Assembly: GCF_003010915.2 (NCBI RefSeq)
Contig: NZ_CP028426.1
Coordinates: 992,001 to 1,056,000 of the forward strand
Source of the DNA: Gulosibacter molinativorax
GTDB lineage: Bacteria; Actinomycetota; Actinomycetes; Actinomycetales; Microbacteriaceae
Direction of reading: 5' to 3'
Length of the DNA stretch: 64,000 nucleotides
Position 1 is the first letter of the stretch. The number at the start of each line of letters is the position of its first letter. The notes under the pieces are model-generated. The model was not told where the DNA came from and searched no databases. It saw only the letters and a list, made by a program, of their open reading frames with translations. Made by a program: the position numbers and the translations under genes. Positions 8,118 through 46,068 of the stretch are shown here, piece after piece.

Positions 8118-8190
8118 TCGCCGGAATGTCTGCGGAGTGAGCGGAGGCCGCGCGACACGATGCGCTCGGTAGGCGGTGTCGGGCTTTCAA
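8044..8190. repeat. right copy of the diverged 147-bp junction repeat
   Basis: It contains a Pr6Pr 3' stub followed by the 3' end of the intact DNA-alkylation-repeat gene. It is the partner of 1609-1755. Confidence 0.75.
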
Positions 8191-10480: not shown

Positions 10481-10495
10481 CGCGTGCCGCCCGGG

Positions 10496-17961: not shown

Positions 17962-18218
17962 CCGATAGTGGTGAGTATCCCCCACCAGTGTCTACCGGGG
18001 CGGATCACCGCAATACGACACCGAGTGGAATAGCCGGTGCACCTGACGGGACAGGGAGGACGCGGAAGTTCGTGCTCCGGCCTACCGGAAGGACGATGTA
18101 ATGACTCTCTGGCTTGAAACGCCGCCGTTCAGACGGTTTACGGTCGTGTGCCGAGGGGGCAGGGAGCGTGTCGAACATCTCCTTCATCCTGGCACAGGCT
18201 GCAACGTTCGGAGCAGCC

Positions 18219-19097
18219 GTGAGTGAGCAGGCGCGGGGACCGGATCTATTGGGCGCGGCTCTCGACTACGCGCGCGCCGGGGTTCCCGTGTTCCCGTGCG
18301 TGCCGTTGGGGAAAGCGCCGCTGACCCATCAAGGGTTCAAGGATGCCAGCACGAGTCCGGCGCAGATCCACCGCTGGTGGCAGTGGCAGCCGGAGGCGAA
18401 CATCGCCCTGGTCACTGGGGCGGCACGATCCCGTATCGACATCCTCGACATCGACGTGCATCCCGGCGGTGACGGGTTCGCGGCGCTCGAGCAGGTGGAG
18501 CAGGCGGGGCTGATCGACTCGTGGCAGCGGATCGTGCGCTCGCCGTCTGGGGGCCTGCACGTCGTGTTCCCCTCGAACCCGTCGCCCGAGCAGCGCAGCT
18601 GGGCGGTGCCGACCGCGCACGTCGATTTCCTCGCGAACGGCAGTTACGTCCTCGCTCCCCCGTCCCGGGTACGTACCCGTGACGGGTCGGTGCGCTCCTA
18701 CGAGGTGGTCGCCACCGGAGCGCGTCCGGCTCCAGTGGCGGGGTGGCGGCTGGAATCGGTACTCCGGCCCGCCCGCACGGTGCAGCTCGAGGCGACAGCG
18801 GGGCCGCAGCGCTCCGGGCAGGGGCCGCGATGGGATGCGGAACGTTTGGCGGACTGGATGGCAGGGCGGCCGGAGGGGAATCGGAACCGGTCGCTGTTCT
18901 GGGCCGCGTGCCGCCTCGCAGAGACCGGGACGGTGTCGACGCAACAGTGGGAGACCCTCGCGCAGGGCGCTGTCCGGGCGGGGCTGCAGGAGCTTGAGGC
19001 GGTGCGCACGATCCAGTCCGCGCAGCGCTCCACCCGACTCGCGGCCCCCGTAGCCAGCGGCGGGGTGGGTGCCGGAGAGCAACGGATCGCGTTATGA
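18219..19097 (+). CDS. bifunctional primase/polymerase (prim-pol) domain protein
   Basis: A protein of about 292 residues with a prim-pol (AEP superfamily) domain: AGVPVFPCVPLGKAPL, WWQWQPEANIALVTG, the metal-binding DIDVHPGGDG (its two aspartates bind metal) and GGLHVVF. It should prime replication of the element or of the transferred strand. The helicase half found in larger relatives is absent. Two GTG starts, 18168 and 18219, both have ribosome binding sites; the later one fits the family N-terminus. It is coupled to the next gene by a 4-nt overlap. Confidence 0.75.
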   Translation: MSEQARGPDLLGAALDYARAGVPVFPCVPLGKAPLTHQGFKDASTSPAQIHRWWQWQPEANIALVTGAARSRIDILDIDVHPGGDGFAALEQVEQAGLIDSWQRIVRSPSGGLHVVFPSNPSPEQRSWAVPTAHVDFLANGSYVLAPPSRVRTRDGSVRSYEVVATGARPAPVAGWRLESVLRPARTVQLEATAGPQRSGQGPRWDAERLADWMAGRPEGNRNRSLFWAACRLAETGTVSTQQWETLAQGAVRAGLQELEAVRTIQSAQRSTRLAAPVASGGVGAGEQRIAL

Positions 19098-23117: not shown

Positions 23118-24290
23118 ATGAAGAAGCTCGCGCTCCTGCTCGCCGGGGTCCTATTCGCGGGCCCGGTGACGGTGCTGGTCGCTCCCGCGCTGATCGCGAA
23201 CCCTGCCGTGCTGCAAGCTGCGGCCTGCACCGTATCGTCGCTGACCGTGGTCGCCGAGGTGCCCGACGAGCTCGTGGCGACCACCCGTGACGGTGTCCAG
23301 GTCGTCCTGAACAAGACGCAGCTCACCCACGCGCGCACCGTGATCCAGATCGGCGCGAGCATCGACGAGGTGGGCCGAGAGGGCGTGATCATCGCGCTGA
23401 TGGCGGGGCTGACGGAGTCCCGGATGCGGATGCTCGCCAATACCGTCTACCCGGAATCGGCCGACTACCCGAACGACGGGGTGGGGTCGGATCATGACAG
23501 CCTCGGGATCTTCCAGATGCGCCCGCAGGCCGGGTGGGGCACTGTCGCACAGCTGATGAGCGTCACCTATCAGGCGCAGGCGTTCTACGGCGGCCCGAAC
23601 GGCCCGAACTATCCCTCCCCGCGGGGGCTTCTCGACATCCCGAACTGGCAGCAGCTCACCCGGGGCGAGGTCGCGCAAGCGGTTGAGGTGAGTGCGTTCC
23701 CGGATCGGTACGCGAACTGGGAGCCGGTCGCCGAGGCGATCCTCACCGCTCTCACGGTTCCCTCCTCCGGCGGTGGCGGGGAGGCTCCGGCGTCCGGGGA
23801 TATCGCACCCACGACGCGGATCGTGGTGCCGATGCCCGAGGGCAGCTACGTCAAGACCAGCCCGTTCGGGATGCGCGAGGATCCGCTGCAGCCGGGCCTG
23901 TTCCGTATGCACTACGGCATCGACTTCGCCGCGCCCGACGGCACGCCGATCTTGTCGATGGCCGATGGGGTGGTGCTGTGGGCCGGGAACCGGCCCGGGT
24001 GGAACAACATCCTCGTCATCGAGCACAACATCGCGGGCGCAAAGGTCGTCACCCTGTACGCGCACATGTGGGATCACGGCTATCACGTCCGCACCGGGGA
24101 CCGCGTCAGCGCGGGCCAGCACGTCGCCGACGTCGGTTCCGAAGGCTACTCGACTGGCCCGCACCTGCACTTCGAGGTGCATCCCGGCGGGTGGGAATCC
24201 CCCGCGGTCGATCCGGACGCGTGGCTTTCCGAGCACGGCGCCGAGGGCGTCACCGACCCGTCAACGAGTGTGCGGAGCTGCACCCGATGA
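23118..24290 (+). CDS. VirB1-like peptidoglycan hydrolase with M23 peptidase domain
   Basis: A 390-residue exported protein with a signal peptide (residues 1-35), a lysozyme-like/SLT-type region at about 75-205 (MAGLTESRMRMLANT, SLGIFQMRPQAGWGT) and a C-terminal LytM/M23 metallopeptidase at about 245-380. The zinc ligands are visible in HYGIDFAAPDG and HLHFEVHPGG. It would open the peptidoglycan for the conjugation channel. It lies 4 nt after the TcpC-like gene in the transfer operon. Confidence 0.85.
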   Translation: MKKLALLLAGVLFAGPVTVLVAPALIANPAVLQAAACTVSSLTVVAEVPDELVATTRDGVQVVLNKTQLTHARTVIQIGASIDEVGREGVIIALMAGLTESRMRMLANTVYPESADYPNDGVGSDHDSLGIFQMRPQAGWGTVAQLMSVTYQAQAFYGGPNGPNYPSPRGLLDIPNWQQLTRGEVAQAVEVSAFPDRYANWEPVAEAILTALTVPSSGGGGEAPASGDIAPTTRIVVPMPEGSYVKTSPFGMREDPLQPGLFRMHYGIDFAAPDGTPILSMADGVVLWAGNRPGWNNILVIEHNIAGAKVVTLYAHMWDHGYHVRTGDRVSAGQHVADVGSEGYSTGPHLHFEVHPGGWESPAVDPDAWLSEHGAEGVTDPSTSVRSCTR

Positions 24291-26505: not shown

Positions 26506-26518
26506 GAGAGGAATCGTG

Positions 26519-27967
26519 ATGAGTGACGAGTTCGAGCTCCACCCCGTCAAGTTCTCCCGCGTCTCCCGGCGAGGCATGCTCCTGGGCCTGACCGGGCCGC
26601 AGCTAGTGACCGCAAGCATCGCGGTGACGATCCTCGTGTCAGCCCTCTACTTCGGCGGCGGCGAAGCAATCACCTGGACAAGCCCCGCCTGGGCATCGGT
26701 CGTGGCACTCACCTGGGTACCCGTCGCGGGCAGGCCCGCGATCGACTGGCTCCCCGTCACCGGGCACTGGGCGGCACGCGTCGCCGCGAAGCAGACCGTC
26801 TACCGCAAACGCGTCACCAAACCCCGGCCCGCCGGAACGCTTGCGCTCCCCGGCGACGCAGCGAGCCTGCGCATGCACTTCGACCCAGACAGCGGAGCCG
26901 TCATGGTGCACGATCCGCACCGGGCGACCCTCACCGCCGTGCTCGAGGTCAGCCACCCCGCGTTCGTGCTCCTCGACCCCGGCGAGCAAGAGCGCCGCGT
27001 GCACGCCTGGGGTCGCGTGCTCGCCACCGCGTGCCGGTCAAACCACGTAGCCAGACTGCAAGTTCTCGAGCGGACGCTTCCCGACTCGGGCACCGGGCTC
27101 ACACAGTGGTGGAGCAGTCACGGTCATAACGACGGTTCCTGGGTCGCGGGCGTCTATCAAGACCTCATCGACCGTGCAGGCCCGGCTGGGGAACGCCACG
27201 TCACCACCATTTCCCTCGCGCTCGATATGAAGGCTGCCGCCCGCGCGATCCGCTCCGCCGGGCGCGGAATGAAAGGCGCTGCCGCGGTCCTCCGGCAGGA
27301 GATGACGACCCTCACCAGCGCCCTGCGCACTGCGGACCTGCGCCCCTCCCTCTGGTACGGGCCCGGGCAACTCGCCGTGATGCTCCGCACGGCCTACGAC
27401 CCGCAAGTCGCGGCCGCACTCGATCGCTCCGGCGATCTCGGCCAGGACCTCGCCACAGCGGGCCCGGTCGCTGTCGATGAGCGCTGGAGCAGGCTCCGTA
27501 CGGACAGCGCTTTCCACGCCGTGCTCTGGGTGTCAGATTGGCCCAGATCCCAGGTCTACCCAGGTTTTCTTGCTCCGCTGATGCTCTCCAGCGGGATCCG
27601 CCGCAGCTTCTCCCTGATCTGCGACCCGATCCGCTCGGACCAGGCCGCTCGGAGCATCCGTAAGCTCCGCACCGAGTATGTCTCCGACGCCGCGCAGCGC
27701 GCGAAGGTCGGGCAGATCGAAGATGCTCAGCAGACCGCCGAGTACCAGGACGTGCTGCGGCAGGAGTCCGACTTGATCGCCGGTCACGGCGTCCTCCGCT
27801 ACACCGGCCTCATCACTGTCTCCGCTGACTCCGAAGCGGAACTCGAGCGCGCCACCGCTGCGATCCAGCAAGCGGCGATCCAAGCTTCCCTTGAGACCCG
27901 ACTCCTCGTGGGCCAGCAGGCCGGAGCCTTTACGGCCTCGGCGCTGCCGCTGTGTCGCGGCATCTAG
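26519..27967 (+). CDS. SCO6880 family conjugation protein
   Basis: A 482-residue protein with two N-terminal transmembrane helices (VirB3/PrgI-like, about 25-65) and a large cytosolic region (MHFDPDSGAVMVHDPHRATL, TTISLALDMKAAARAI, VWVSDWPRSQVYPGFLAPLM). It matches the SCO6880 family, a regular part of actinobacterial type IV secretion clusters that usually directly precedes the VirB4-like ATPase. Here the ATPase is 5.3 kb further on because a defence operon lies between. The ATG at 26519 follows GAGAGGAATC. Confidence 0.85.
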   Translation: MSDEFELHPVKFSRVSRRGMLLGLTGPQLVTASIAVTILVSALYFGGGEAITWTSPAWASVVALTWVPVAGRPAIDWLPVTGHWAARVAAKQTVYRKRVTKPRPAGTLALPGDAASLRMHFDPDSGAVMVHDPHRATLTAVLEVSHPAFVLLDPGEQERRVHAWGRVLATACRSNHVARLQVLERTLPDSGTGLTQWWSSHGHNDGSWVAGVYQDLIDRAGPAGERHVTTISLALDMKAAARAIRSAGRGMKGAAAVLRQEMTTLTSALRTADLRPSLWYGPGQLAVMLRTAYDPQVAAALDRSGDLGQDLATAGPVAVDERWSRLRTDSAFHAVLWVSDWPRSQVYPGFLAPLMLSSGIRRSFSLICDPIRSDQAARSIRKLRTEYVSDAAQRAKVGQIEDAQQTAEYQDVLRQESDLIAGHGVLRYTGLITVSADSEAELERATAAIQQAAIQASLETRLLVGQQAGAFTASALPLCRGI

Positions 27968-28540
27968 GGAGAGAACAACCAGGGGCGTCTCGTCTACGAA
28001 TTCGTAGCCTGCGTTCATTCGGAAGAAAACGAGTGGTCTTCCGTGAGGGAATCGGGCTGACTGTCAGGTTCTGTGTCATTGTGGACAGCCAAAAAGGGGA
28101 GAAGTTCCGCAATTACCAGACACCTAGGGTAAGCGTGGGGTGTGATTCCTTGAATGTTGGCGGCTTTCTGGGATTCTGAGAGTGCTGGTGGGTCTTTTTA
28201 CGCCTGAGCGCTCTCTCTGGGGTTTGGTGGCTTCGGGTTACCATTCAGAACAAAACGCGGCGGTGCGCGGGGTACTGCCTGGGGAGAACGGTGTGCGGAA
28301 GCTAGCGAACCTTTATCAACTGTCGTGAATGAGGAACATGAGAGTCTCTTCGTGTCACCTGGTCAGCGTGTCTTGGGCATCGGGAATTCGTTCTAGTCGG
28401 GGTGTGAGATCGCTAGGCTGAACAGAGTAGAGATGTGAGGCTCCGATGTACTGGGTCGTGTTGAGATCGGTGCCGCGCATGTCGGGAATGTCAGTGGTGT
28501 GTGGTTCCCTCAGAGTCCACGAAGTGTAGAAGGAGAAGGC
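27968..28540. other. AT-richer intergenic region upstream of the defence operon
   Basis: 573 bp without a supported gene; base composition is visibly poorer in GC than in the flanks. It holds the end of the transfer operon, the left junction of the cargo and presumably the promoter of the defence operon. A possible -10 hexamer is TAGGCT near 28411. A 60-75-codon frame here has no ribosome binding site. Confidence 0.45.
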
Positions 28541-29395
28541 ATGGGTTCCACAGTTCAGGATGTGTGCATTCCGGAACGGTTTTCATACGCGATAGACCAG
28601 CACTTGGTCTTTAACTACACCGGCGTGCAAGCGTGGCCGCTGGTGCTCGGGATTTTCGGGCGTCCTGGTGACGGGAAAAGTTTCCAGGTTCGCACGCATC
28701 TCGAACGTCGAGGCGTCCTCCCAGTTTCGATTAATGCTGCCGATCTGGAAAGCGACCGGGCGGGGATGCCGGGAAAGCTTGTCCTTGAAACGTATGAGGA
28801 TGCTGGCCATCGGATCGACGAGGGCACACCGACGGTATTGGTGGTCGATGACTTTGATACGACCGTCGGCGAGTGGGCGCAGAGCACCACGACGGTGAAC
28901 CATCAGCAAGTATTGGCGCAACTCATGCACCTGGCAGACAGCCCTACCCGTGCAGGTGATCGGTCGCTGCGCCGGGTGCCGGTGATCATCACAGGTAACG
29001 ACCTCTCAAAAGTGTATCCGCCATTGCGTCGCCCCGGCCGGATGCGTGCATTCCCTTGGCTCCCGACCACAGAAGAACGTGCCCACATCGTCACGGGCAT
29101 CTTAGGAACCATGCTCTCGCCGTCTGAGATCAGCGAGCTGTTGGGAGAGCTGGAGGAGGCTCCGATCGCGTTCTTCTCCGATCTGCTCGTGGAGATTCTC
29201 GCCGAGTCTTCGGACGCGGAGGTACGCCGCCATGCTGCTTCTCTACCTCGTCTGATCCTCCCGAGGAGTGCGGAACGTGAGGAGCTTGAACGTGTGCTCC
29301 CCACGGGGCGCTTGGAAGGGGCGCAGGTGAAGGCTCTCGCTTTGCATGTCTGGCACCAGCGCATGCTTGCCACCCAATCGTACGTCGGGGAATGA
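28541..29395 (+). CDS. Rubisco-activase-like AAA+ ATPase of a putative defence system
   Basis: A 284-residue AAA+ ATPase with Walker A GRPGDGKS (about residues 40-47), Walker B VLVVDDFD (about 98-105), sensor 1 IITGND (about 149-154) and arginines in RRPGRM (about 163-168). The order and wording (LVLGIFGRPGDGKSFQ, LESDRAGMPGKL, LMHLADSPT, VPVIITGNDLSKVYPPL) closely follow Rubisco activase, although no Rubisco gene is present. Rca-type rings remodel a partner protein. The likely partner is the next gene or a TIR protein. AAGGAG precedes the ATG. Confidence 0.8.
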   Translation: MGSTVQDVCIPERFSYAIDQHLVFNYTGVQAWPLVLGIFGRPGDGKSFQVRTHLERRGVLPVSINAADLESDRAGMPGKLVLETYEDAGHRIDEGTPTVLVVDDFDTTVGEWAQSTTTVNHQQVLAQLMHLADSPTRAGDRSLRRVPVIITGNDLSKVYPPLRRPGRMRAFPWLPTTEERAHIVTGILGTMLSPSEISELLGELEEAPIAFFSDLLVEILAESSDAEVRRHAASLPRLILPRSAEREELERVLPTGRLEGAQVKALALHVWHQRMLATQSYVGE

Positions 29396-29405
29396 GGAAG
29401 CGACG

Positions 29406-29927
29406 ATGAGCACGTTCACCTACTCATATGCGTACACGCGTTCGCAGGCGCTGGTCGACCAAGTGGAGGTCTTGTTTTCGGGAGCGGGAATTCCGTCGGG
29501 TTCTACGGCGAAAGTCTGTCACGGGGTGCAGGAGAAATGGCTTGCCGCCGTCGGCCTCTACCTCTTGAAGAATGGTCAGCGCGTGTACGAGATCGAGGCC
29601 GTAATTAACTGGTCGGCCCATTCGGGGAACCCCACACTGAACTTCTCGACTGATCTTCCCGGATGGGAGGGCAAAGCCTCGCCTGAAGCTGCAATCTTAG
29701 GGGCTAGGTTCGCAGCAAAAGCCCAATCAGAAGGATTGGACCCACGATACTGGGTGCGATTTATCCCTGCGATCCAGAACGATCCTGCCCTTCATCAGCG
29801 TTTGTGCCCGGAGGTAGGGGTCAGCTATGGAAGTAGTGTGCCGGGATGGGCAAAGTCTCCCACGGAAGTGAAGCTGAGTCTGCAAGACCTCAGCGAAGTC
29901 GGTATGGCCGAACGTAGCGCCCTTTAG
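29406..29927 (+). CDS. conserved partner protein of the AAA+/TIR operon, family unknown
   Basis: A 173-residue soluble protein. It starts MSTFTYSYAYTRSQALVDQV and contains EKWLAAVGLYLLKNGQRVYE, INWSAHSGN, DLPGWEGKASPEA, RYWVRFIPAI and RLCPEVGVSYGSSVPGW. The N-terminal T-Y-S-Y-x-x-T-R pattern and the length recall bacterial HORMA proteins, which act with AAA+ remodellers in CBASS; this is a visual similarity only. It is a plausible sensor or adaptor acted on by the ATPase. The ATG follows GAGGAAG, 10 nt after the ATPase stop. Confidence 0.7.
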   Translation: MSTFTYSYAYTRSQALVDQVEVLFSGAGIPSGSTAKVCHGVQEKWLAAVGLYLLKNGQRVYEIEAVINWSAHSGNPTLNFSTDLPGWEGKASPEAAILGARFAAKAQSEGLDPRYWVRFIPAIQNDPALHQRLCPEVGVSYGSSVPGWAKSPTEVKLSLQDLSEVGMAERSAL

Positions 29928-29941
29928 CGGAAGGAAACGTC

Positions 29942-30490
29942 ATGGCACGCAAGATTTTCATCTCATTCCACCAGGCAGATGAGATCCAAGCGAACATCTG
30001 GATTCGGCGGTTCAGCCAGTACTTTAGTGAGATACGAAGTCTCGGATTACACGAACTCGGGGACGACTTCACTGAGCACATCGAAAGCGGTGACAGTGAG
30101 TACGTGATGCGTCGAATTCGAGAGGACAAGATCGCCGGCACTTCCTGCACCGTGGTGCTCCTGGGCCAGTGCACTTGGGCGAGGAGATATGTGGACTGGG
30201 AAATCGCTGCCACGCTCCGCAATTTCACGGACAGCCAGCGTGGAGGTTTGATCGGAGTGCAATTGCCCGGTACTCAGAACTTGGCAATGCCGAAGCTCCC
30301 GCCAAGGCTCGCATTGAATCTGGCGCAAGAAGACGGCGTCGACACTGGGTACGCGAGGGTCTACCCACCAGCTCCGAGCGATGGCACGATTGTGCGATGG
30401 GTGGATGACGCTGTCGCCAGGCGCAACGACATGGATCCGGCTACCGGGTCGACCTCTGATCTGATGATCAACAACCGTTCCTGCCCCTAG
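29942..30490 (+). CDS. ThsB-like TIR-domain protein
   Basis: A 182-residue protein made mainly of one TIR-like domain. It opens with KIFISFHQADE, like the ThsB/MTH538 group. It has VMRRIREDKIAGTSCTVVLL as the third strand and RRYVDWEIAATL, where the Trp-Glu pair carries the probable NADase/cyclase glutamate (about residue 87). ThsB proteins make cADPR-like signals from NAD on phage infection. The C-terminal 40 residues are probably disordered. It lies 14 nt after the partner gene, with GGAAGGAAACG as ribosome binding site. Confidence 0.8.
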   Translation: MARKIFISFHQADEIQANIWIRRFSQYFSEIRSLGLHELGDDFTEHIESGDSEYVMRRIREDKIAGTSCTVVLLGQCTWARRYVDWEIAATLRNFTDSQRGGLIGVQLPGTQNLAMPKLPPRLALNLAQEDGVDTGYARVYPPAPSDGTIVRWVDDAVARRNDMDPATGSTSDLMINNRSCP

Positions 30491-30531
30491 TCGCTTCACA
30501 CTTGGCCGAGTCCTGATTGAAGGAGAGTTTC

Positions 30532-31743
30532 ATGGCTGTGGCACCGCCCATCCTCGACGTTTTCGCGGTCTGGCACCCCGAAGAGTTCGGTGGAGAGCAA
30601 CTCTTCACGCGACTTGATGACCATTACCATTCCCCGGCGTTTTCCGGTCTCGCTGGCGGTGCGGTAGAAGTGTATGCGCGGAGCGCACCATGGGGCGCGG
30701 ACGGCGCTCCGCGCCCGTTGGGGATTAGTGACGAACTCGCCCCCGGTATTGTGGCCGCCCACCGCAACGTCATCATCGTGTACGTCGGTGCCGAGCTCGC
30801 GACCGCATTCAAGAATGATCCAGCATGGGGGCGCTACATCAGGGAGATTGTCGAACTGGGCGCGCGTGAACAAGTCAAGGTCTACACCGTCCTCAAAGAG
30901 GGTTTCGACCTGGCGAGTTCGAGGATCGGGGAACTCCTCGGTGATACACAAGCGCTTACCGGAGCGTTGCTCCACGAACAGGGAAGTCTCGGCCGGGAAG
31001 TGAGCCAAGCGATCACGCAGTGGATCACCGGTACGTCTCAGATTCGCGTGTTCATTAGCCACACGAAACACTCCTCACTGGTTGAAACTGACGCAAATAG
31101 TGGCGCGAACATCGCTCAGAGAGTACGTGATGTGATTCGCAGGACGCATTTGGATGATTTCTTTGACGCGCAAGACATCCAGGCTGGTGATGATTGGGAG
31201 GCTGTTCTCGATGGCAACGCTGAAGGGTCCGCACTGTTGATGGTTCGTACCGATAAGTACGCGGGGCGTGAATGGACGCAACGGGAAGTACTTACCGCGA
31301 AAACCGCTGACGTGCCGATCGTGTGTCTCCATGCGCTGACCGGTGGGGAAGACCGCGGCTCTTTCCTCATGGATCATGTTCCCTCGGTGCCCTGCAGTCT
31401 TGAAAGCCCAGAAGGGGGAATCGTTGCCGCTCTAAATAGCCTCGTTGATGAAGCCCTGAAACGTGCCTTGTGGGAAGCTCAACGGGTGTACCACGAGAGC
31501 GACGGGTTTGATTGGCTGCCGGTGCATGCGCCGGAACCGGTGACACTCACGCAGTGGCTCCGCGTGCATCAACGAGAAGACCCAGGGGACGAGCACGTCT
31601 GGATTATGCACCCGGACCCACCCTTAGGGCCGCAGGAACGTGACGTGGTGAAATCACTCTGTTCTCTTGCCGGGTTTACCGATTCGGTCGAGATTCTCAC
31701 ACCGAGGACTTTTGCCACCCGAGGAGGAGTACTGCCGTCGTGA
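30532..31743 (+). CDS. TIR protein with an additional N-terminal alpha/beta domain
   Basis: A 403-residue protein. Residues about 170-300 are a TIR domain: IRVFISHTK, then RTHLDDFFDAQDIQAGDDWE, SALLMVRTDKYAGREWTQRE (catalytic-type Glu near 250) and VPIVCLHAL. Residues 1-165 form another alpha/beta unit (PILDVFAVWHPEEFGGEQLF, NVIIVYVGAEL) that looks like a degenerate TIR or receptor domain. Residues 300-403 are of unknown type. It may be a second NAD-consuming effector or a sensor pairing with the ThsB-like protein. The ATG at 30532 follows AAGGAGAG. Confidence 0.8.
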   Translation: MAVAPPILDVFAVWHPEEFGGEQLFTRLDDHYHSPAFSGLAGGAVEVYARSAPWGADGAPRPLGISDELAPGIVAAHRNVIIVYVGAELATAFKNDPAWGRYIREIVELGAREQVKVYTVLKEGFDLASSRIGELLGDTQALTGALLHEQGSLGREVSQAITQWITGTSQIRVFISHTKHSSLVETDANSGANIAQRVRDVIRRTHLDDFFDAQDIQAGDDWEAVLDGNAEGSALLMVRTDKYAGREWTQREVLTAKTADVPIVCLHALTGGEDRGSFLMDHVPSVPCSLESPEGGIVAALNSLVDEALKRALWEAQRVYHESDGFDWLPVHAPEPVTLTQWLRVHQREDPGDEHVWIMHPDPPLGPQERDVVKSLCSLAGFTDSVEILTPRTFATRGGVLPS

Positions 31744-32564
31744 ACGAACCCTCCCTGATCGCCCGCGACGCTCTCGCCCACCGACGCATCGCCCTCTCTG
31801 TCTCTGAGAGCGCAGACCTTCCCGCTTTAGGACTCTCCGAACGACATTGCCGCATGGTCGTCGCTGAAACCGCGAGGGCCGTGTTCCTTGGCGGTGGCAC
31901 CATTGTCTACGGCGGACACCTGGAAGAGACCGGGTATACCCAGATCCTGCTCGATGAGATTCAACGATTCAGAGACCGGACGGCCTCATTGGAAATCGTG
32001 CTTGCAGAACCAGTCGCCCGACACACTCCAATAGAACGGCTCGAACAGGTCGTACAACGCCTGGGCGAGTTCGGGAAGCTGACATGCATCGACCGCGCCG
32101 GGAACCCTCTCTCGCTTCGAAATATCGAACAGGCGCATGATGCTGCTGGCGACGCAGCCGCTTTCACCGCGATGCGGACGCACATCGCTGAAAACACTGA
32201 TGCGCGGGTCGTTGTTGGGGGCAAACTACAAGGCTATGCGGGGCAAGAGCCGGGGACAATCGAGGAAGCGCGGCTGAGCATCGCAGCGGGCGCAGAGCTA
32301 TTCGTTGCTGGAGGGTACGGGGGTGCTGCGGCGCTACTGGTGACGGAAATACTCGGCGAGAAACCGACTTGGATGCCAGAACGCTTCCCCGCAAATTCCG
32401 AGAACGCTGAGGTGCAGCGCGCGCTGGCACGGTTCCGCTCCGAATGGGACAAGCGGCCCGCATCAACACATCAGGTAGATGCTCAGGTCCTGTCCGCCAC
32501 CCACCGTCCGGCAGACATTGCAACGGTCCTGTCCCGGGCGCTGGCCCGCAGGTCGACAGCGTGA
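31740..32564 (+). CDS. SLOG-domain nucleotide-binding protein
   Basis: A 274-residue Rossmann-like protein of the SLOG/LOG superfamily. Nucleotide-binding turns are ARAVFLGGGTIVYGGHLE (about 45-62), ARVVVGGKLQGYAGQEPGTIEEA (in two parts, about 155-180) and FVAGGYGGAAALLV (about 188-200). In Thoeris, the SLOG domain of ThsA binds the cADPR-type product of ThsB. Here the SLOG is a stand-alone gene coupled by a GTGA overlap to the large TIR gene, so it may sense or process the TIR product. No SIR2 or membrane effector is fused to it. Confidence 0.75.
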   Translation: MNEPSLIARDALAHRRIALSVSESADLPALGLSERHCRMVVAETARAVFLGGGTIVYGGHLEETGYTQILLDEIQRFRDRTASLEIVLAEPVARHTPIERLEQVVQRLGEFGKLTCIDRAGNPLSLRNIEQAHDAAGDAAAFTAMRTHIAENTDARVVVGGKLQGYAGQEPGTIEEARLSIAAGAELFVAGGYGGAAALLVTEILGEKPTWMPERFPANSENAEVQRALARFRSEWDKRPASTHQVDAQVLSATHRPADIATVLSRALARRSTA

Positions 32565-33311
32565 AGAGCTCGTCGTCGACGACGTGTTGACGAGGTTCAG
32601 GCGCAAGGCCTCGCCGTGACTCGATGCGTGAAAGGGCCCGTGGCGTATCAGGCTATGGCGGGCTAATCGGGGTGATAGCGTCGAACGATCTCGCAGGCGC
32701 GTCTTGTGCTGCTTGGTTATCGCCCCGTTCGTAATCATGATACTCACAAGCCTGCTGGTCGAGAGAGCGTTAGCCAGTTCGTGGCATGTTGAACCGACAA
32801 TTTATCGATAATTCCTCCATGCCAGAGATGACCGCGAACTTACCCGTTTTGGAGGGTAGCGCGGAAGCCGCGAACTTCATTGATGCTCATGCCGTGTGCT
32901 AACTCATGTGCTACCGACGCTGTGGAGTCGAGAATCACGGTGTAGTCATCCACAGGTGGGCCTCGCAGAAATGGCGGAATCACGCGGTGGAACGCTGGTT
33001 CACGATCCCAATCGCGAGGGAGAACGGATCAGTTCAGGTCCCCTACTTGCCGGAGCTCGACGGCTTGCTAGAACGCGTCCGGATACCGGCCTCAGAGATC
33101 CACTCAGCACTCCTCAGTCCCGTGACATGCATCGACATGCGTCGACTCAGATCGAAGTGCTTCTGGATGCGAGGTCTGTCCGCCAAGTCAAAGTCGCAGC
33201 TAGCTCAGTTCGCAACTGCGCCCGCTTCGACGTATACGTGAGCTGGCCAGGATAGAGGGAGGCCGGGGGCACCTCGTGTGAGCACTTGTTGTTCTCACGG
33301 AAGGCCCTTGT
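32565..33311. other. intergenic region, right flank of the defence operon
   Basis: About 750 bp without a supported gene. It contains a 14-bp perfect palindrome CGTCGTCGACGACG at 32571-32584, just after the SLOG stop, possibly part of a terminator. It also has the AT-rich palindrome TTATCGATAA at 32802-32811. Overlapping frames at 32896-33255 have no ribosome binding sites and are probably debris of an insertion. Confidence 0.45.
33267..33274 (+). promoter_or_regulatory. GGGCACCT leader motif (copy 5)
   Basis: It lies 37 bp before the VirB4-like gene. This marks the return to backbone genes after the cargo, since the defence operon itself lacks the motif. Confidence 0.5.
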
Positions 33312-34787
33312 ATGCCACTCCCCGATTCTGGTCCGCTGCACGCGTCACCCTTGATCTCTCCCCCAAAGGAGCGGCGCCGAGTTCGTTCGGCCCGTCGACG
33401 GGCTGCAGCTCAGATACGTCTGCAGGCCGACAACTCGCGTCGAGCTGCGGCGCGCGCTCAGGCCGAAGCGGAACGTGAAGAAGCTCGCTCCACTCAGTAT
33501 CTGCCTCGCGCCGGCGACCCGGGCCCGGCGGCGTTACGGTCCTGGGGCCGTTTCAATGTTCCAACGCATCAAGACACGTCCGCAGCGCTCGCGGGCGCGT
33601 ACCCGTTCCTCGCGGAAGGTGGCCTGGGCAGCGAGGGGGTGTTCGTTGGTCAGGATTTGTACTCGGCAGCGTCGTTCGTGTTCGACCCGTGGCGGCTGTA
33701 CCAGCAGGGTCTGATCACCGCCCCGAACACGGTGCTGGCGGGAATCGTCGGCTCAGGGAAGTCAGCACTAGCGAAGAGCCTCTACACGCGCTCGATCGCG
33801 TTCGGGCGGCGCGTGTATGTGGTGGCAGACCCGAAAGGTGAGCACACGAACGTCGCCGAGGCGGTCGGGGGCCGGGCGATCCGGCTCGGGCATGGACTCC
33901 CGGCACGGCTGAACCCGCTGGATGCGGGCTACCGGGCGGCGGGCCTCTCAGATGCCGAGTGGGTGACCCAGGTCTCGGCTCGCCGCCGGGATCTCGTCGG
34001 CGCGCTCGCGGAGACGGTGCTGGATCGTCCGTTGTCGCCGGTGGAGCACACGGCGATTGATATCGCGTTGCGTGCTGCGGTGGCGTCATCGGAGGTGCCG
34101 ATCCTGCCGATGGTCGTCGAGCGCATGCTCACACCCGACACGAGAGAAGATACGCGTCTCGAGGAAGACGGGCGGATGGTCGCCCACGCGCTCCGGCGGC
34201 TCGTCTACGGGGATCTGAAGGGCATGTTCGATGCCCCGTCGACGGTGGTGTTCGATCCGTCGCTGCCGATGCTGTCGCTGGATCTGTCACGGGTGTCGGA
34301 GTCGAACACGTTGATGTCGGTTCTGATGACGTGCTGCTCAGCGTGGATGGAGTCCGCGCTGCAGGACCCCGCGGGCGGGCAGCGGTGGATGGTGTACGAC
34401 GAGGCGTGGCGGCTGATCGGGCACGCCGCGCTGCTGCGGCGGATGGATGCGCAGTGGCGGCTGGCACGGCATTTCGGGATCGCGAACCTGCTGATCGTGC
34501 ACAAGGTCACCGATCTTGAGACTGGCGGGGATCAGGGGTCGATGCTGCGGGCGCTCGCGTCGAGCTTGCTGGCGAACTCCGAGACCAGGATCGTGTACCG
34601 GCAGGAGTCGGATCAGATCGAGGCGACCGGGCGGCTGCTCGGGATGACCGGAACAGAGCGTTCACTGCTGCCCGGGCTCGGCACCGGGCAGGGCCTGTGG
34701 AAGATCAAGGAGAGATCTTTCGTCGTCCAGCATCAACTGCATCCAGCGGAACTGGAGATGTTCGATACCCGCGCCAGGATGGGCTGA
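33312..34787 (+). CDS. VirB4-like conjugation ATPase
   Basis: A 491-residue cytosolic ATPase with a basic, helical N-terminus (about 20-60). Walker A is GIVGSGKSAL (about 144-152), the region VVADPKGEH follows, and Walker B is WMVYDEAWRLI (about 355). Next come the RHFGIANLLIVHKVTDL motif and EATGRLLGMTGTERSLLPGL, typical of VirB4/TraC ATPases. It lacks the N-terminal domain of full VirB4, which in this family is provided by the SCO6880 protein. It powers assembly and transfer. Confidence 0.85.
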   Translation: MPLPDSGPLHASPLISPPKERRRVRSARRRAAAQIRLQADNSRRAAARAQAEAEREEARSTQYLPRAGDPGPAALRSWGRFNVPTHQDTSAALAGAYPFLAEGGLGSEGVFVGQDLYSAASFVFDPWRLYQQGLITAPNTVLAGIVGSGKSALAKSLYTRSIAFGRRVYVVADPKGEHTNVAEAVGGRAIRLGHGLPARLNPLDAGYRAAGLSDAEWVTQVSARRRDLVGALAETVLDRPLSPVEHTAIDIALRAAVASSEVPILPMVVERMLTPDTREDTRLEEDGRMVAHALRRLVYGDLKGMFDAPSTVVFDPSLPMLSLDLSRVSESNTLMSVLMTCCSAWMESALQDPAGGQRWMVYDEAWRLIGHAALLRRMDAQWRLARHFGIANLLIVHKVTDLETGGDQGSMLRALASSLLANSETRIVYRQESDQIEATGRLLGMTGTERSLLPGLGTGQGLWKIKERSFVVQHQLHPAELEMFDTRARMG

Positions 34788-34792
34788 CCGCG

Positions 34793-35326
34793 ATGCCGAG
34801 GAAGCGGAGAAATCCGCAGAAATCCGGGCCTCTGCCCGTACCTGTGACTCTACCCCTGGTGGTCGCTGCTGTCCAGGAAGACGGGAGCATCATCGTCACT
34901 GTCGACGGGGTGATGCTCATGCAGGGCCCGATCGAGAGGGATGCGCTCGGGCGGGTGCTGTCGGCGATCGCGGAAGACAAACGGTCTCCGATCCGGGCGG
35001 AGGTGCACGAGGCGGACGGTCGCGTGTTCGCGGACATCATCACCCCGCCGCCGCCCAGGTCGCGGTTCGCGCCACCGCCCGCCACGTCTCCGGTGCCGCC
35101 GCCGGTGCCTGCGGTGCGGCGCCCAGCCCTGGTGGAGGTGGCCGGGCAGGGATTCGTGCCTGGTGAGGATGTGGCGGTGCTGGTGATCGTCGCGCATACC
35201 TCTGCCGCAGGTAACGGGCTCGCGCGGGCGATCCTGGAACAGGAGCGGCTCCCCGACGACGTGCGGGATGTGCTGCTGTTCGGGGAGGTGTCGGGAACGA
35301 TCGTCCGGCAGGGAGTGCGGCCATGA
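34793..35326 (+). CDS. hypothetical conjugation-cluster protein
   Basis: A 177-residue protein with a basic N-terminus, an acidic alpha/beta part (EDGSIIVTVDGVMLMQGPIE), a Pro-rich linker and a C-terminal domain (FVPGEDVAVLVIVAHTSAAG). It sits between the VirB4-like and coupling-protein genes and overlaps the latter by 4 nt. No family name is known to me. Its position suggests an accessory cytosolic transfer factor. Confidence 0.6.
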   Translation: MPRKRRNPQKSGPLPVPVTLPLVVAAVQEDGSIIVTVDGVMLMQGPIERDALGRVLSAIAEDKRSPIRAEVHEADGRVFADIITPPPPRSRFAPPPATSPVPPPVPAVRRPALVEVAGQGFVPGEDVAVLVIVAHTSAAGNGLARAILEQERLPDDVRDVLLFGEVSGTIVRQGVRP

Positions 35327-37080
35327 ACCGGGCTCAGGCGAGACCGGCCAACGATCATCTCCTGAACATCGGGATCGGACTGATGGTGGCCGGGTTCGCG
35401 TTCGCGCTGATCCTCCGCGCAGCCGGCACCGTCGCGGCCTGGCTTTCGGGTCTGCTGCTTCCCGAGGTGGGGTTGGCTGCGGGCTTGGGCGTCTTCACCG
35501 ACCCCCTGCATCCGGGACTGGCGTTCGGAGTTGATGAGCTGCATCCTGTGGTGTTCTGGCTCGTCGCTGCCGTCATGCTGACCGCGGTGATCTGGCCGGC
35601 GGTGTGGGGGTGGCTGCGGTGGCGGGCGAGAGCTGAGCACACCGACCCGCGACGCCTCAAGGGAACCGCGACCGGGGCCGAGGTCGCGCAGGCGGCGTCA
35701 GCGAAGTCGCTGGTGAAGCGGGCATCCACGTTCCGCCCCTCGCTGAAAGAGGCGACCGCGGCGGATGTCGGCTACCTGCTGGGCACGTCGCGGGGACGGC
35801 AGGTGTGGGCGACGGTGGAGGACTCGATGCTCGTGATCGGGCCGCCGAGATCCGGGAAAGGCATGCATCTGGTCCTGAATGCCATCTTGGATGCGCCCGG
35901 CGCAGTGATCACGACGAGCACCCGCCCAGACAATCTCACCGCGACGCTCACAGCCCGGAAAGAGAAGGGCCCGGTGGCCGTGTTCGATCCGCAACGGCTC
36001 GCACCCGGTATCCCGTCGGGGCTGCGATGGTCGCCGGTGCGGGGCTGCCAGGACCCGTTGACGGCGATGATCCGGGCGACCGGGCTGGCATCGGCGATCG
36101 GGTTCGGCGGGGTCGACAACGGTGGCTTCTGGGAGGGCAAGGCGCGCATGGCGATCCAGGCGCTCTTGCACGCCGCCGCCCTCGACGGGCGGGACGCGCG
36201 CACGGTCGCCCAGTGGGCGCAGTCTCCGACCACGGCCGGGGATGCGGTGCGGATCCTGCAATCCCATTCGGGGGCGGCGGATGGGTGGGCGGACTCGCTG
36301 GATTCGATGATCCAGTCCGATCCGCGCACCAGGGACTCGATCTGGCAGGGCGTCTCCCTCGCGTTCGGTGCCCTCGCCGACCCGCGGGTGCTCGAAGCGG
36401 TCACTCCGGGAGAGGACGAGCAGTTCGATCCGGAGAAGTTCCTCCTCGCCAAAGGCACCCTCTACCTCCTCGCCACCGGCGCCGGGGCGGGCGCCTCGGC
36501 TGCATTGGTCGCCGCGTTCATCGAGGACTTGGTGGAGACGGCGCGACGTATCGCCGCCCGCTCCCCCGGTGCGCGCCTGGATCCGCCGATGCTGATGGCG
36601 CTGGACGAGATCGGAAACCTCTCCCCCTTGCCTTCGCTGCCGACGCTGATGGCGGAGGGTGGTGGTACGGGGATTACGCCGATGCCGGTGCTGCAGTCGC
36701 TCGCGCAGGCGCGGGAGAAGTGGTCGGAGAACGCGGCGAACGCGATCTGGGATGCGTCGATCGTGAAGATCGTCCTCGGGGGCGCATCGAACAGCCGCGA
36801 CCTGCACGACCTGTCGCAGCTGGTCGGGGAACGTGACGAGGAGACCGACTCGGTCACCCAGGACGCCTATGGCGGGCATTCCTCGCAACGGTCGATCCGG
36901 CGTGTGCCGATCCTGCCCCCAGACGTGCTGCGCACCCTCCCGTTCGGGACCGGGGTGATCCTGCTGCGCACGACCCGCCCCATCGTCGCAGACCTCCGCC
37001 CCTGGACCGCACGGCCGGATGCGGCTGAGCTAAAGGCGGATCGCGCGCGCCTCGAAGAGCAACTGCAGCAGGGGGCCTGA
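35323..37080 (+). CDS. VirD4/TraG-like type IV coupling protein
   Basis: A 585-residue coupling protein with two N-terminal transmembrane helices (about 20-48 and 72-97). Walker A is GPPRSGKGMH (about 172-181), ISTSTRPDN-like text follows (here TTSTRPDN), and Walker B is PMLMALDEIGNL (about 420-431). LVGERDEETDSVTQDAYGGHSSQRS is found further on in two parts. It brings the DNA to the channel. It is the third ATPase-type gene of the transfer machine and overlaps the preceding gene by 4 nt. Confidence 0.9.
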   Translation: MNRAQARPANDHLLNIGIGLMVAGFAFALILRAAGTVAAWLSGLLLPEVGLAAGLGVFTDPLHPGLAFGVDELHPVVFWLVAAVMLTAVIWPAVWGWLRWRARAEHTDPRRLKGTATGAEVAQAASAKSLVKRASTFRPSLKEATAADVGYLLGTSRGRQVWATVEDSMLVIGPPRSGKGMHLVLNAILDAPGAVITTSTRPDNLTATLTARKEKGPVAVFDPQRLAPGIPSGLRWSPVRGCQDPLTAMIRATGLASAIGFGGVDNGGFWEGKARMAIQALLHAAALDGRDARTVAQWAQSPTTAGDAVRILQSHSGAADGWADSLDSMIQSDPRTRDSIWQGVSLAFGALADPRVLEAVTPGEDEQFDPEKFLLAKGTLYLLATGAGAGASAALVAAFIEDLVETARRIAARSPGARLDPPMLMALDEIGNLSPLPSLPTLMAEGGGTGITPMPVLQSLAQAREKWSENAANAIWDASIVKIVLGGASNSRDLHDLSQLVGERDEETDSVTQDAYGGHSSQRSIRRVPILPPDVLRTLPFGTGVILLRTTRPIVADLRPWTARPDAAELKADRARLEEQLQQGA

Positions 37081-37700: not shown

Positions 37701-37924
37701 CCGTACGCGGCCACGGCCTCTTCGACTGCTGGTGGCGGTGCTGCTCCTCCCCGCACCCCGGGCCGCACCGCCACCAGCTGCCTTCCTGCCGGTTCTGTGA
37801 TCCGCGAGGTGATCATGCGCTCTCTGAATGCGTTTCCCCTGACGGGTGCCCCTTTCTGCGTGTCGGGGCGCCCGCGTACACTGGAAGTGTCTAGTCCGCT
37901 CCCGCATACCGGGAGCAGTTGCTG

Positions 37925-40900
37925 ATGGCGCGTCGCAAGCGTCTCGACCCGGCCCTGTACGGTCAGGTCGAACTCGATCTTTGGGGGCTGGACGACACCA
38001 CTGCGCAGGAGACCGTCACGGTCGGCGCAGCCACCCCCGACCCTGTTCCGCCCGTATCGGACACGGCGGAGATGCCGGGGCAGATTGAGGAAGGAGCAGA
38101 CGATGACGCACTATCAAACGCTCGCACGCACCCATTGGACCCGGTACGCGCCGACGAGAGTCGAAGCGATCCCGAACCCGGACGAGTTCTTCCAGATGCT
38201 GGGCCAGCAGGTGCACGAGCAGGTGACCGAGCTGACCGTCCAGTTGGCGGGGCAGGACCGGGCCGGGGAGAGCTACCTGGAGAAGGTCGGACGGCTGGGC
38301 GCGGCGAGACTGCGGGCGGAGGAGATCGTCTTGACGGAGCTGGTGTGGATCAGCTCCCCGGAGACGAGCCCGGCCGAGGCGCGGGAAGCGTGGGAGCTGG
38401 ATCGGACCTCGGACTCCTGGCTGACCTCCTGGGCGGAACGGATTCAAGAATCCCCGGAGGATCAGATGCCCGCGACCGAGGAACTGGTCGACCTGGCAGC
38501 GGAGTGGATGCTGCCGGTGACATTCCTGCAGGCACTCCTGGAAGCGGAGTACCCGGCCCAGTTCCTCCGCGAGCACCAGGAGACCCTCGCCCAAGCGGCG
38601 GAACGCCGCTACCACCGCTCCTAAGCACCACCGCGGAACCCGCCACCCCAGGCACACCTGCCGGGGCGGCGGTATCCGCGGTGGCGTTTCAGCCTGGTAC
38701 GCAGGAGGATCTCGCGCCGTCGGGCGCGAAAGCCCGGTTCGAGGCCAACATCCATGCGATCCGCGTCGTCCGCACCCTCACCACGGAAGAGCGTCCAGCA
38801 ACCGTAGACGAGCAGCAACGGCTGGCTCGTTGGTCCAGCTGGGGTGCGATCCCGCAGGTGTTCGATGAGGAGAACACGGACTGGGTGACCGAGCGTGCCC
38901 TGCTGCGTGGGCTGCTGGACGAGCAGGAGTGGCGGGCTGCAGCGCGCACCACGATCAACGCCCACTACACCGATCCCGCCTATGTGCAGGAGATCTGGGA
39001 TGGCGTCGCTCGGCTCGGGTTCCAGGGCGGCACGGTGCTCGAGCCCGGGTCGGGGGCGGGCACGTTCATCGGGCTCGCCCCGGCCTCTGCCCGCATGGTC
39101 GGGGTCGAACTCGACCCGCTCACGGCCGCGATCTCTCAGGGCCTCTACCCTGGCGCGGATATCCGTGCCGAATCGTTCGCGGACACCAAAGCTCCGGCCG
39201 CATCGTTTGATGCTGCGGTGGGGAACGTGCCGTTCGCGGACGTCACTTTGCACGACCCAGTACATAATGCGTCGGGGCACTCGATGCACAACCATTTCAT
39301 CGTCAAAGCCCTGCACCTGACGCGGCCTGGCGGGGTGGTCGCGATGCTCACCTCGCATTGGACGATGGACGCGCAGAACCCGGCAGCGCGGCGGGAGATG
39401 AACGAGCTCGCCGACCTCCTCGGCGCCGTGCGACTCCCCACGGGCGCGCACCGGCGCGCAGCCGGCACTGAGGCACTCACCGATCTGCTGCTGTTCCGTC
39501 GCCGCGACCCCGGACAGGAGCCCGCGAGCGACGTGTGGGAGATGGTCACCCCCGTGACCATCGACGGGGAACGGGTGAAGATCAACACCTACTTCGCGGA
39601 CTACCGGCCCGATCATGTGCTCGGCGAGCTCCGGGTCGGGCAGGGCATGTACGGGAACCAGACGCTCCGCGTCACCGCCGACCTGACCGGCGTGCCCCGC
39701 CTGCTGCGCGACACACTCACCGAGATCACCACCTCCGCGACCGAGCGCGGCCTGACCTTCACCCCGCCCACGGCGGCGCAGGAGCAGGAACGTGCGGCCA
39801 GAGTCGCCGCCGACCCCGCCCTGTTCGACGGCTCCATCCAGACCACCCCCGACGGCGCCTTCCGGGTCGTGTCCAGTGGGGAGTCGCTGCCACTGAAAGT
39901 GCCCAAGTCCGCCGCCGTCGAGCTGCGGGCGCTGCTGACGTTGCGGGACGGCGCGATCGAGCTGCTCGAGATGGAGGCAGCCACCCGGGACGACACCGAC
40001 GAGATCGAGACCGCCCGCGCCCGGTTGCGTGACCAGTACGAGAGGTACGTGGCCCGGTATGGGCCGCTGAACCGCTACACGCTGCGCCGCACCGGCCGCA
40101 CCGACCCCGACACCGGGGAGGACACGCACGCGAGGATCGTGCCGACTCCGCTGCGGATTCTGCGCGGCGACCCGTTCGGGCCGCTCGTCGTCGCGCTCGA
40201 GGTGTTCGATGAGCAGGAGCAGACCGCGGCCGGCGCATCGATTCTCTCCGGCCGGGTCGTCGCCCCGACCCCGCCTGTGCGCGGTGTCGAGAGCCCGGCG
40301 GATGCGATCTCGGTGAGTCTCGACCGCACTGGCAGGGTCGATCTGGAGCTCATCGCCGAACTCCTCGGCACCGACGGGCCCGATGCGCGAGCCGCTCTTG
40401 CCGGGCATGTGTTCGAAGACCCCGCCACCGGGGACCTCATTCACGCCCCGGAGTACCTGTCGGGGAACGTGCGCATCAAGCTCGACGCCGCAGAGTCCGC
40501 GGTCAAGGAGCGTCCGGAGTTGCAGGGCAACGTCGACGCGCTGAAAGCGGTGCTGCCTGAGCCGTTGGGGGTGGATGAGATCGCGGCGCGGCTCGGAGCG
40601 GTATGGATCAGCGCCGCCACGCATGAGGAGTTCCTGCGGGAGATCCTGAAAGCCCCGGACGTGAAAGTGGAAAACCCGCTGCCGGGCATGTGGGAGGTGC
40701 GCGGCGGCAGACAGGGCATCCTCGCGACCAGCGAATGGGGCACCCAGCGGCGCCCCGCACCGGATCTGGTGCAGTCGGTGATGGAGCAGAAACGCATCCA
40801 GGTGTACGACGAGCACCGAGACCCAGACGGCACCACGGTGCGGATCTTCAACCCCGTCGAGACGACCGCGGCGCAGGAGAAGGCCGACCAGCTGCAGGAG

Positions 40901-44745: not shown

Positions 44746-46068
44746 TCATCCGTCGATACCGGCGAACACTTTGTTGAGCGCTTCGGCCGCGACTTCGACG
44801 ATGAGTTCGGGGCGCTTTGCGTAGTGCCCTTCGGTGATCGCCTCGTCACTGTGCCCGAGTAGGTCGCGGGCAACCTCGACGCCGGCCGTGTCCGAAACAG
44901 CCGCAGCGACAGCCTTGCGGAGGCTGCGAAATGTGAGGTGCTCGGCGTCGACCCCGATAGCCAGCAGCTCGGGCTCGAACTCGCGGCGGAACATCCGCAG
45001 CAGCTCGCCGATTGCACTAGCGTCACGCGGACGGCCGCGCTCGGACGTGATCAGCACATCATCTGGATTTCGCTCAGGGTCGGGAACGTGGTTCGCGACG
45101 AGTTCGCTCAGAACCTTCGTTGCGAACTGCGGAACGCGAACCCAACGCTTCTGTCTCTCGGCCTTAGGCGAGTCCTGACGGAACAGCCCGCGGGACTTCG
45201 TGCGAACCATCGTCCCGCCGACCCACACAAGCGCCTCCATCGTCAGACTTCCATCCGGCTGCTCCACCGCCTCGAACTTCACGTCTTGGAAGCGGATCGC
45301 GATCGGTTCTGCGGTTCTTTCGGAGGTTCCGAGCGTGATGAGGATGTAGTCGGCGAGTAGTTTATAGTTGGGCCGTCGGCCCACCGGGTAGCGTGCTCGG
45401 TGCCGTTCGGGCCACACCTCACGGATGAGGTGGAGGATGTATTTGACCTGCACCGCGTCGAGTTCGAAGTACACTGTGTCCGGTTCGTCCGCTCGCCGGG
45501 TCGCACGGATCGGGTTCGCCACGACGACCGCTCCGTACCGTGTCTGCTGGATCGACCCGGCAGCCGAGAAGTGCCCCTGCTGGATTGCCCAGTCGAACAT
45601 CAGCGACATCACGTTGCGAACCTTGTTCGCGGTCATCACCGACTTCTCGCGTGCGATGTCTATAAGCAACCCGTCTGCGCGATCGACGGTGATCTCAGCA
45701 ATGGGGATCGCACCAGCACGTGGAACGATATGCGCACGGATCACGGATGCGTAGCCGTCAACAGTCTGTTCGCGGCGCTGACGCAGTACCCGTGGATCGT
45801 CATCGTGATACGCAACCTTCAGCCATGAGGTCGCCAGTTCAGAGACCGTCAGGATCTGCGTTCGCGGTGCCAGGACTCGACCCACCGCGACATCGGCGGA
45901 CGCCCGCAACGCAGCCAAGGCTTCATCCTCAGTTGCTCCGCTACCGTTTGGACGGTGCTCCTTGCCGCTACCGTCATGAACCCGCGCCCGCGCGACAATG
46001 AGGCCACTCGACTCGACGGTGTAGGTCACCTTGCCGAGTTCGCCGAGCGCTCGCTTTGGCCGGCCCAT
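44746..46068 (-). CDS. int: tyrosine site-specific integrase of the element
   Basis: A 440-residue tyrosine recombinase with an N-terminal arm-type domain, a SAM-like core-binding domain (about 75-165) and a catalytic domain. Catalytic arginine I is in LGTSERTAEPIAIR and arginine II in LTFRSLRKAVAAAV, where the usual histidine of HxxR appears to be Arg. The third His is in LLGHSDEAIT and the nucleophile tyrosine in GHYAKR. It would insert and excise the element. It shares one base with the stop of the excisionase gene and is transcribed into the element. Confidence 0.85.
   Translation of the reverse strand: MGRPKRALGELGKVTYTVESSGLIVARARVHDGSGKEHRPNGSGATEDEALAALRASADVAVGRVLAPRTQILTVSELATSWLKVAYHDDDPRVLRQRREQTVDGYASVIRAHIVPRAGAIPIAEITVDRADGLLIDIAREKSVMTANKVRNVMSLMFDWAIQQGHFSAAGSIQQTRYGAVVVANPIRATRRADEPDTVYFELDAVQVKYILHLIREVWPERHRARYPVGRRPNYKLLADYILITLGTSERTAEPIAIRFQDVKFEAVEQPDGSLTMEALVWVGGTMVRTKSRGLFRQDSPKAERQKRWVRVPQFATKVLSELVANHVPDPERNPDDVLITSERGRPRDASAIGELLRMFRREFEPELLAIGVDAEHLTFRSLRKAVAAAVSDTAGVEVARDLLGHSDEAITEGHYAKRPELIVEVAAEALNKVFAGIDG

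Follow-up and report, generated by a model that had tools for sequence, protein, structure and literature searches.

What holds a TIR-based immune system off, and what triggers it? The question is raised by a five-gene operon in Gulosibacter molinativorax, located at 28541-32564 on the plus strand of the window, by which we mean the whole 64,000-nucleotide (nt) stretch analysed here (NZ_CP028426.1, positions 992,001 to 1,056,000). In order, it encodes a Rubisco-activase-like AAA+ ATPase, a protein of 173 amino acids (aa) with a predicted HORMA fold, a small ThsB-type TIR protein, a larger TIR protein and a stand-alone SLOG protein. We read it, with a probability of about 0.6, as a mobile defence operon in which the HORMA protein and the ATPase would form a switch gating a TIR/SLOG signalling core, in other words as Thoeris-like immunity in a HORMA-gated form. 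The checkpoints of mitosis and meiosis are run by HORMA proteins and their ATPase, both of which are known in bacteria from cyclic-oligonucleotide-based anti-phage signalling systems (CBASS). If a TIR system is indeed gated in this way, the switch would be a general immune module and not a CBASS part, with an ATPase drawn from another AAA+ family, and the model offers a testable answer to how such a system is kept silent and then set off.

Five proteins and a predicted HORMA fold

The five open reading frames (ORFs) are intact and lie where a sequence-only reading had placed them, with gaps of 10, 14 and 41 nt and then a 4-nt overlap, in agreement with the layout and spacings it gave; its domain reading (AAA+, two TIRs, SLOG) is likewise supported by Pfam and PDB matches. 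A purine-rich stretch precedes every start codon, and scans for promoters and terminators found no more than they did in shuffles. Given the Pfam and PDB matches, the existence of relatives of the 173-aa protein and low dN/dS values against Rhodococcus (0.07-0.15 in the four genes compared, SLOG left out), the array is, on these comparisons, not a chance product.

Sixty-four relatives of the 173-aa protein reach E <=0.001, the top one probably being that protein itself, from the window, or a close copy of it. When its predicted structure was compared with the PDB in two Foldseek comparisons, all of the matches listed (50/50) were HORMA entries, among them Mad2, Rev7 and CBASS HORMA proteins, and we thus describe it as having a predicted HORMA fold. 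The protein itself drew nothing useful from Pfam (best 0.13) and no PADLOC model up to E 1, while a genome search with PF18138 matched nowhere, controls included, and so carries no information. Its N-terminus is poorly ordered in the model, yet among its best conserved parts. The sequence-only reading had called this protein a partner of the ATPase; the adjacent partner stands, and the predicted HORMA fold would give the proposed gate a mechanism.

The ATPase (284 aa; Pfam AAA, 1.3e-13) is, by sequence comparison, an activase-type AAA+ protein, closest among solved AAA+ structures to Rubisco activase and not to Trip13. A phmmer search of the PDB placed Rubisco activase 3t15 first (5e-36), followed by a pair of further activases (1e-34 and 3.5e-34) and then by a VCP-like protein at 4.1e-10; a profile of 37 relatives matched three activases over the AAA+ domain at 1e-47 (6z1d) to 5.5e-47, with the next family at 6.6e-12. 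Its motifs are GRPGDGKS (Walker A), VVDDFD (Walker B), TGND and RRPGRM; without exception the 37 relatives keep the glycines and lysine of Walker A, the aspartates of Walker B, GND and the arginines of RRPGR. Against the CBASS Trip13 of E. coli (record NZ_CP054230, coordinates from PMC9122588), pairwise BLASTP gave 25% identity over 150 aa (E 8e-6) and hhalign a probability of 48%; the sole PADLOC match was mad8, at 0.042. Since its nearest solved structures are Rubisco activases, a link of the operon to Rubisco or carbon fixation was considered. It would be very surprising: TIR and SLOG genes are neighbours in 6/6 loci read (see below), and a Rubisco family occurs in 0/10 window proteins scanned with Pfam. 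A Rubisco or metabolic operon was rejected on this neighbourhood, in which the operon ATPase differs from Rubisco activase itself.

Among the TIR proteins, the small one is the better defined. It matches PF08937 (ThsB_TIR) at 4.5e-17 and 62.7 bits against a cut-off of 21.2, the PADLOC models ThsB (5.8e-12) and PDC-M50B (a candidate model, 8.3e-12), and the ThsB1 structure 9b7d (7.8e-4). Glu87, a candidate catalytic residue, is invariant in 8/8 TIRs aligned. A C-terminal D-A-GST pattern is kept in 6/6 HORMA-linked small TIRs (five DPATGST, one DSAIGST), whereas of five unlinked TIRs aligned four lack it and the fifth, from a Rhodococcus plasmid, has a different insert there; as a candidate closure motif the pattern is suggestive only. 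The larger TIR protein matches Pfam TIR_2 at 8.8e-6 and 26.7 bits, just below the 28-bit cut-off, PADLOC ThsB weakly (5.7e-4) and NCBIfam ThcB4 with 33.0 bits in the TIR region alone (cut-off 220); the comparison made for it covered mainly residues 167-316.

The SLOG protein belongs to PF18163 (LD_cluster2, 5.7e-52), the only family passing the Pfam cut-off, with no SIR2 or other effector domain. It matches neither NCBIfam ThcA (cut-off 110 bits) nor any PADLOC model up to E 1; its Klebsiella relative reaches 19.1 bits with ThcA. In three genomes (G055, G187, G269) relatives of the larger TIR protein and an LD_cluster2-like SLOG are fused in ORFs of 729, 788 and 804 aa, and another TIR-like gene adjoins each fusion (loci L007, L018 and L019). 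These are three of the four genomes matching among 297, the fourth being the window's own, and AAA and HORMA genes are absent from the 15-19 kb read around them. Because relatives are fused, the comparison suggests that SLOG and larger TIR act in one complex.

Conserved order, a wider core and a cargo slot

Six loci carrying the HORMA gene were read with their flanks: the window, Rhodococcus HNM0563, Microbacteriaceae PS02068, a Leifsonia metagenome-assembled genome, Mycobacterium deserti and Demequina G337. AAA, HORMA and small TIR genes are contiguous in all six, and the larger TIR and SLOG genes follow in five; Rhodococcus, two Microbacteriaceae and one Demequina share all five genes in the same order. 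The Demequina proteins are 73, 69, 76, 54 and 47% identical to those of the window, in operon order. By equal longest-contig size, which is a proxy only for presence on the same contig, 30/44 HORMA relatives (contigs >=3 kb) coincide with one of the best 120 of 336 AAA relatives, and 5/64 with one of the best 120 of 597 larger-TIR relatives. In M. deserti (L006, 9128-15683) AAA-HORMA-TIR is followed by an LSDAT-type SLOG (LSDAT_prok, 4.7e-61), a patatin (7.7e-27; NCBIfam CBASS lipase 123 bits, below the 200 cut-off) and a TPR-S protein, and both the larger TIR and the LD_cluster2 SLOG are absent from the 20-kb locus at 1e-3. The three genes that follow are a possible alternative effector set.

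The TIR/SLOG part of the operon has a wider distribution. The larger TIR was matched in nine plasmid records; in the four opened, from Rhodococcus jostii RHA1, Klebsiella, Pseudomonas veronii and Priestia (L020-L023; three phyla), ThsB_TIR adjoins it or lies two genes off. The SLOG gene was recognised by Pfam in Klebsiella and by tblastn in RHA1, whereas for P. veronii and Priestia it is placed only from the size and order of the genes; the annotation seen near these genes names no system. Neither HORMA nor AAA was matched anywhere in the plasmid collection, viral contigs gave no profile match to HORMA, AAA or larger TIR (two short peptide patterns each), and phage records gave none to AAA. 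Because the core is found without both genes on plasmids, the HORMA-AAA pair is, by gene content, an addition to a wider ThsB-TIR/TIR/SLOG core.

This distribution also bears on a different account, in which the operon is a Thoeris type III-like system whose two extra proteins would act as chaperones, helping the TIR complex to assemble or remain stable with no sensing or gating. Rubisco activase is a repair-type remodeller, and since plasmid cores are present while AAA and HORMA go unmatched in the plasmid collection, the pair is not essential to the core. In M. deserti, however, AAA-HORMA keeps the small TIR though the larger TIR and the LD_cluster2 SLOG are missing, and the HORMA/AAA+ pairs of type III CBASS regulate activation (PMC9122588). 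We consider the chaperone account unlikely, if the least unlikely of the alternatives to a HORMA gate.

Since DNA homology to the Rhodococcus locus is limited to 28436-32567 (Table 1), the operon itself is, judged by these boundaries, a unit of horizontal transfer. Its Rhodococcus neighbours are an MTES_1575 nuclease-helicase, a ResIII helicase, a UvrD-type helicase and an integrase fragment. In the window it is, by its flanking genes, cargo of an integrated conjugative element, with SCO6880 on its left and VirB4 on its right, and the slot has a GC content of 0.584 against 0.692 and 0.676 on its two sides. A same-genus genome (G004) carries an element 90-94% identical in DNA, whose slot (L035 = G004:C21:24000-43900, 8026-10488) holds ThsB_TIR, ThcB4 (317 bits, cut-off 220) and ThcA (147 bits, cut-off 110; Pfam LD_cluster3), that is, on these matches, the named Thoeris type III system, with a 529-aa ORF of membrane-transporter look and no NCBIfam match on the opposite strand. 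That a single slot carries either this operon or Thoeris type III, depending on the genome, points to an exchange of defence modules at one site.

With a conserved operon, horizontal transfer and defence-type slot or neighbours all found, the operon probably has an anti-phage role. It might instead serve the conjugative element against competing plasmids or elements, as its place in a cargo slot could indicate, along with the three further SCO6880 loci, one of them broken, elsewhere in G000. The same operon nonetheless occurs in a different setting in Rhodococcus, and the alternative cargo in G004 is a system that NCBIfam names anti-phage, so that a role against other elements seems distinctly improbable.

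Table 1. Features of the operon and of the surrounding conjugative element (window coordinates)
Feature	Position	Strand	Basis and remarks
Rubisco-activase-like AAA+ ATPase, 284 aa	28541-29395	+	Pfam AAA, PDB phmmer/profile, motifs; proposed HORMA remodeller
173-aa protein, predicted HORMA fold	29406-29927	+	
Small ThsB-type TIR protein, 182 aa	29942-30490	+	PF08937, PADLOC ThsB, ThsB1 structure 9b7d; proposed signal-making enzyme
Larger TIR protein, 403 aa	30532-31743	+	alpha/beta N-terminal part, TIR ~170-310, C-terminal alpha/beta part
Stand-alone LD_cluster2 SLOG protein, 274 aa	31740-32564	+	PF18163; proposed ligand sensor
Unit shared with Rhodococcus sp. HNM0563, 89.5% nucleotide identity	28436-32567	+	blastn; homology to 20.5-kb Rhodococcus locus stops at both ends
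Cargo slot	27968-33269	.	blastn of window against L035: homology ends 27967, resumes 33270; other cargo in G004
SCO6880-family conjugation gene, intact, left slot edge	26516-27967	+	NCBIfam NF042935 8.5e-135, profile 6-476 of 477
VirB4-type conjugation ATPase, right slot edge	33312-34787	+	Pfam AAA_10 6e-7, above cut-off; NCBIfam CD1110-family 3e-21, below cut-off
TraG/TraD-type coupling protein of the element	35323-37080	+	PF12696 1.4e-27
Tyrosine integrase, probably the element's	44746-46068	-	Phage_integrase 7.1e-7

In other elements the SCO6880-VirB4 gap measures ~0.8 kb in three (two in G000, one in G004) and ~2 kb in one (G003). A similar-looking ORF of ~260 aa lies in this gap at L037 11205-11987 and L036 7839-8627, the L036 copy having no Pfam match, and none was called in the window's slot. 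The idea that the operon interrupted a VirB4 gene, prompted by the conjugation genes on either side, was rejected, since SCO6880 is complete and the two genes are likewise separate in five other elements. The repeats in the slot had the look of short matches arising by chance. The further SCO6880 loci (G000:C1 near 415003, 462026 and 1680446) are 68-72% identical in their main stretches, and the last is split over two frames, with an internal TGA in one. The element also includes a 1948-aa ORF (37919-43765) with no Pfam match at 1e-5, and a Prim-Pol domain protein (18114-19097) and an M23 peptidase (23118-24290) are probably further parts of it. Near a tRNA-Val (62068-62142) lies a DDE transposase (62318-63487).

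A proposed gate and the evidence for and against it

In type III CBASS, cGAS-like activation is under the control of peptide-binding HORMA proteins together with Trip13, an AAA+ ATPase (PMC9122588), and the idea of a threshold switch is found in PMC7159879. By analogy, the small TIR would take the place of the cyclase, and we infer the following steps. The Rubisco-activase-like ring would hold the HORMA protein in its open state, probably through a pull on the conserved peptide at the HORMA N-terminus. On infection a peptide would become available, or partner would be in surplus, and the HORMA protein would close on it; the closed form would then bind and switch on the small ThsB-type TIR, which would convert NAD+ (nicotinamide adenine dinucleotide) into a signal. 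The SLOG protein would bind this signal and, with the larger TIR, destroy NAD+ or otherwise stop the cell, while the ATPase would reset the HORMA protein and set the threshold. One might speculate that what HORMA binds is a phage protein, a thought prompted by a 2025 report that TIR-based systems sense phage capsids (PMC12578639), in which a term search found neither HORMA nor SLOG.

Beyond the analogy with CBASS, the gating model is supported because the small TIR travels with AAA-HORMA in 6/6 loci and because the HORMA N-terminus is conserved though poorly ordered. The sequence-only reading had proposed that the AAA+ protein and its partner gate the TIR enzymes. As the likely gate the pair stands; the proposal needs refining in that the core also occurs without it. 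The wider interpretation built on synteny and mobility gains from the conserved gene order, AAA-HORMA-TIR in every locus read and the full five-gene order in five of six, and from horizontal transfer.

Several observations weigh against a HORMA gate. The Foldseek superpositions are loose (TM-score 0.38-0.51, root-mean-square deviation 5.9-9.2 A, in the 27 matches at E <=0.001), and confidence in the structure model is moderate, two stretches of the 173-aa protein falling below pLDDT 50. Proof of HORMA by sequence was negative in five tests of five: in Pfam to E 1 the HORMA model was matched by 0/39 family members, the best match of any kind being PsbH (8.1e-4, 2/39); a PDB sequence search gave no match up to E 10; and hhalign to six bacHORMA_1 proteins was no better than with shuffled columns (38/100 shuffles as good). 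The ATPase is not nearest to Trip13, the partner type of CBASS HORMA proteins. The system is rare, the HORMA profile being found in 2/396 genomes of the order (own and one other) and, with own only, in 1/394 of the class and 1/396 of the phylum, samples that overlap; at 1e-20 the AAA profile matched 1/396 genomes of the phylum, own only. The effector swap in M. deserti is a single locus, with ~200 nt between the TIR and the next ORF, and the ThsB-TIR/larger TIR/SLOG core exists without HORMA and AAA across phyla. The loose superpositions, the stretches of low confidence and the negative sequence tests would all be expected if the HORMA prediction were wrong; the 173-aa protein would then be an adaptor unrelated to HORMA, and the ATPase would remodel the TIR proteins in a general capacity. 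Since every one of the Foldseek matches listed was a HORMA entry, we regard this as improbable, and retain the HORMA-gated reading.

Comparison with known defence systems

A known named system was rejected on the PADLOC and NCBIfam results, every NCBIfam match of the five proteins falling below its cut-off. In line with the sequence-only reading, which knew of no such gene set, none was found in PADLOC, NCBIfam or the open-access papers searched, absence in print being provisional. That reading had also called the operon Thoeris-related, and the gene content fits: the core of ThsB-TIR, larger TIR and LD_cluster2 SLOG parallels Thoeris type III.

The effector of Thoeris type I senses through SLOG. 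With this type the operon shares a ThsB-type TIR, but its SLOG is without SIR2 fusion, it has two TIR proteins, and the predicted HORMA and AAA+ genes are extra. The likeness to Thoeris type III goes further: the small ThsB-type TIR is 38% identical over 149 aa to the G004 one, the larger TIR has parts on both sides of its TIR domain, the SLOG stands alone, and in G004 the system fills the same slot. In contrast, the larger TIR matches ThcB4 across the TIR domain only, the ThcB4 and ThcA cut-offs are not reached, the SLOG is of LD_cluster2 whereas the G004 ThcA is of LD_cluster3, and the operon adds the predicted HORMA and AAA+ genes.

Type III CBASS (CD-NTase, a cGAS/DncV-like nucleotidyltransferase; HORMA; Trip13; effector) resembles the operon in setting a HORMA protein, here predicted, and an AAA+ protein beside a candidate signal-making enzyme, and the M. 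deserti patatin matches the CBASS lipase model, though below its cut-off (123 of 200 bits). It differs in its enzyme, here a TIR, with no CD-NTase match in the five proteins (Pfam to E 1), and in its ATPase, here Rubisco-activase-like and not of the Trip13 type. Whether TIR-made, NAD+-derived signalling, and not a cGAS-like enzyme, is what a HORMA/AAA+ checkpoint switch controls here, with a ring of the Rubisco-activase type replacing Trip13, is to our minds evenly balanced. If so, HORMA switches would be in use in a second bacterial immune lineage, HORMA proteins would have a second kind of AAA+ ring working on them, and AAA-HORMA-TIR would be a portable cassette, possibly general beyond this operon, that plugs into varied SLOG-linked effectors.

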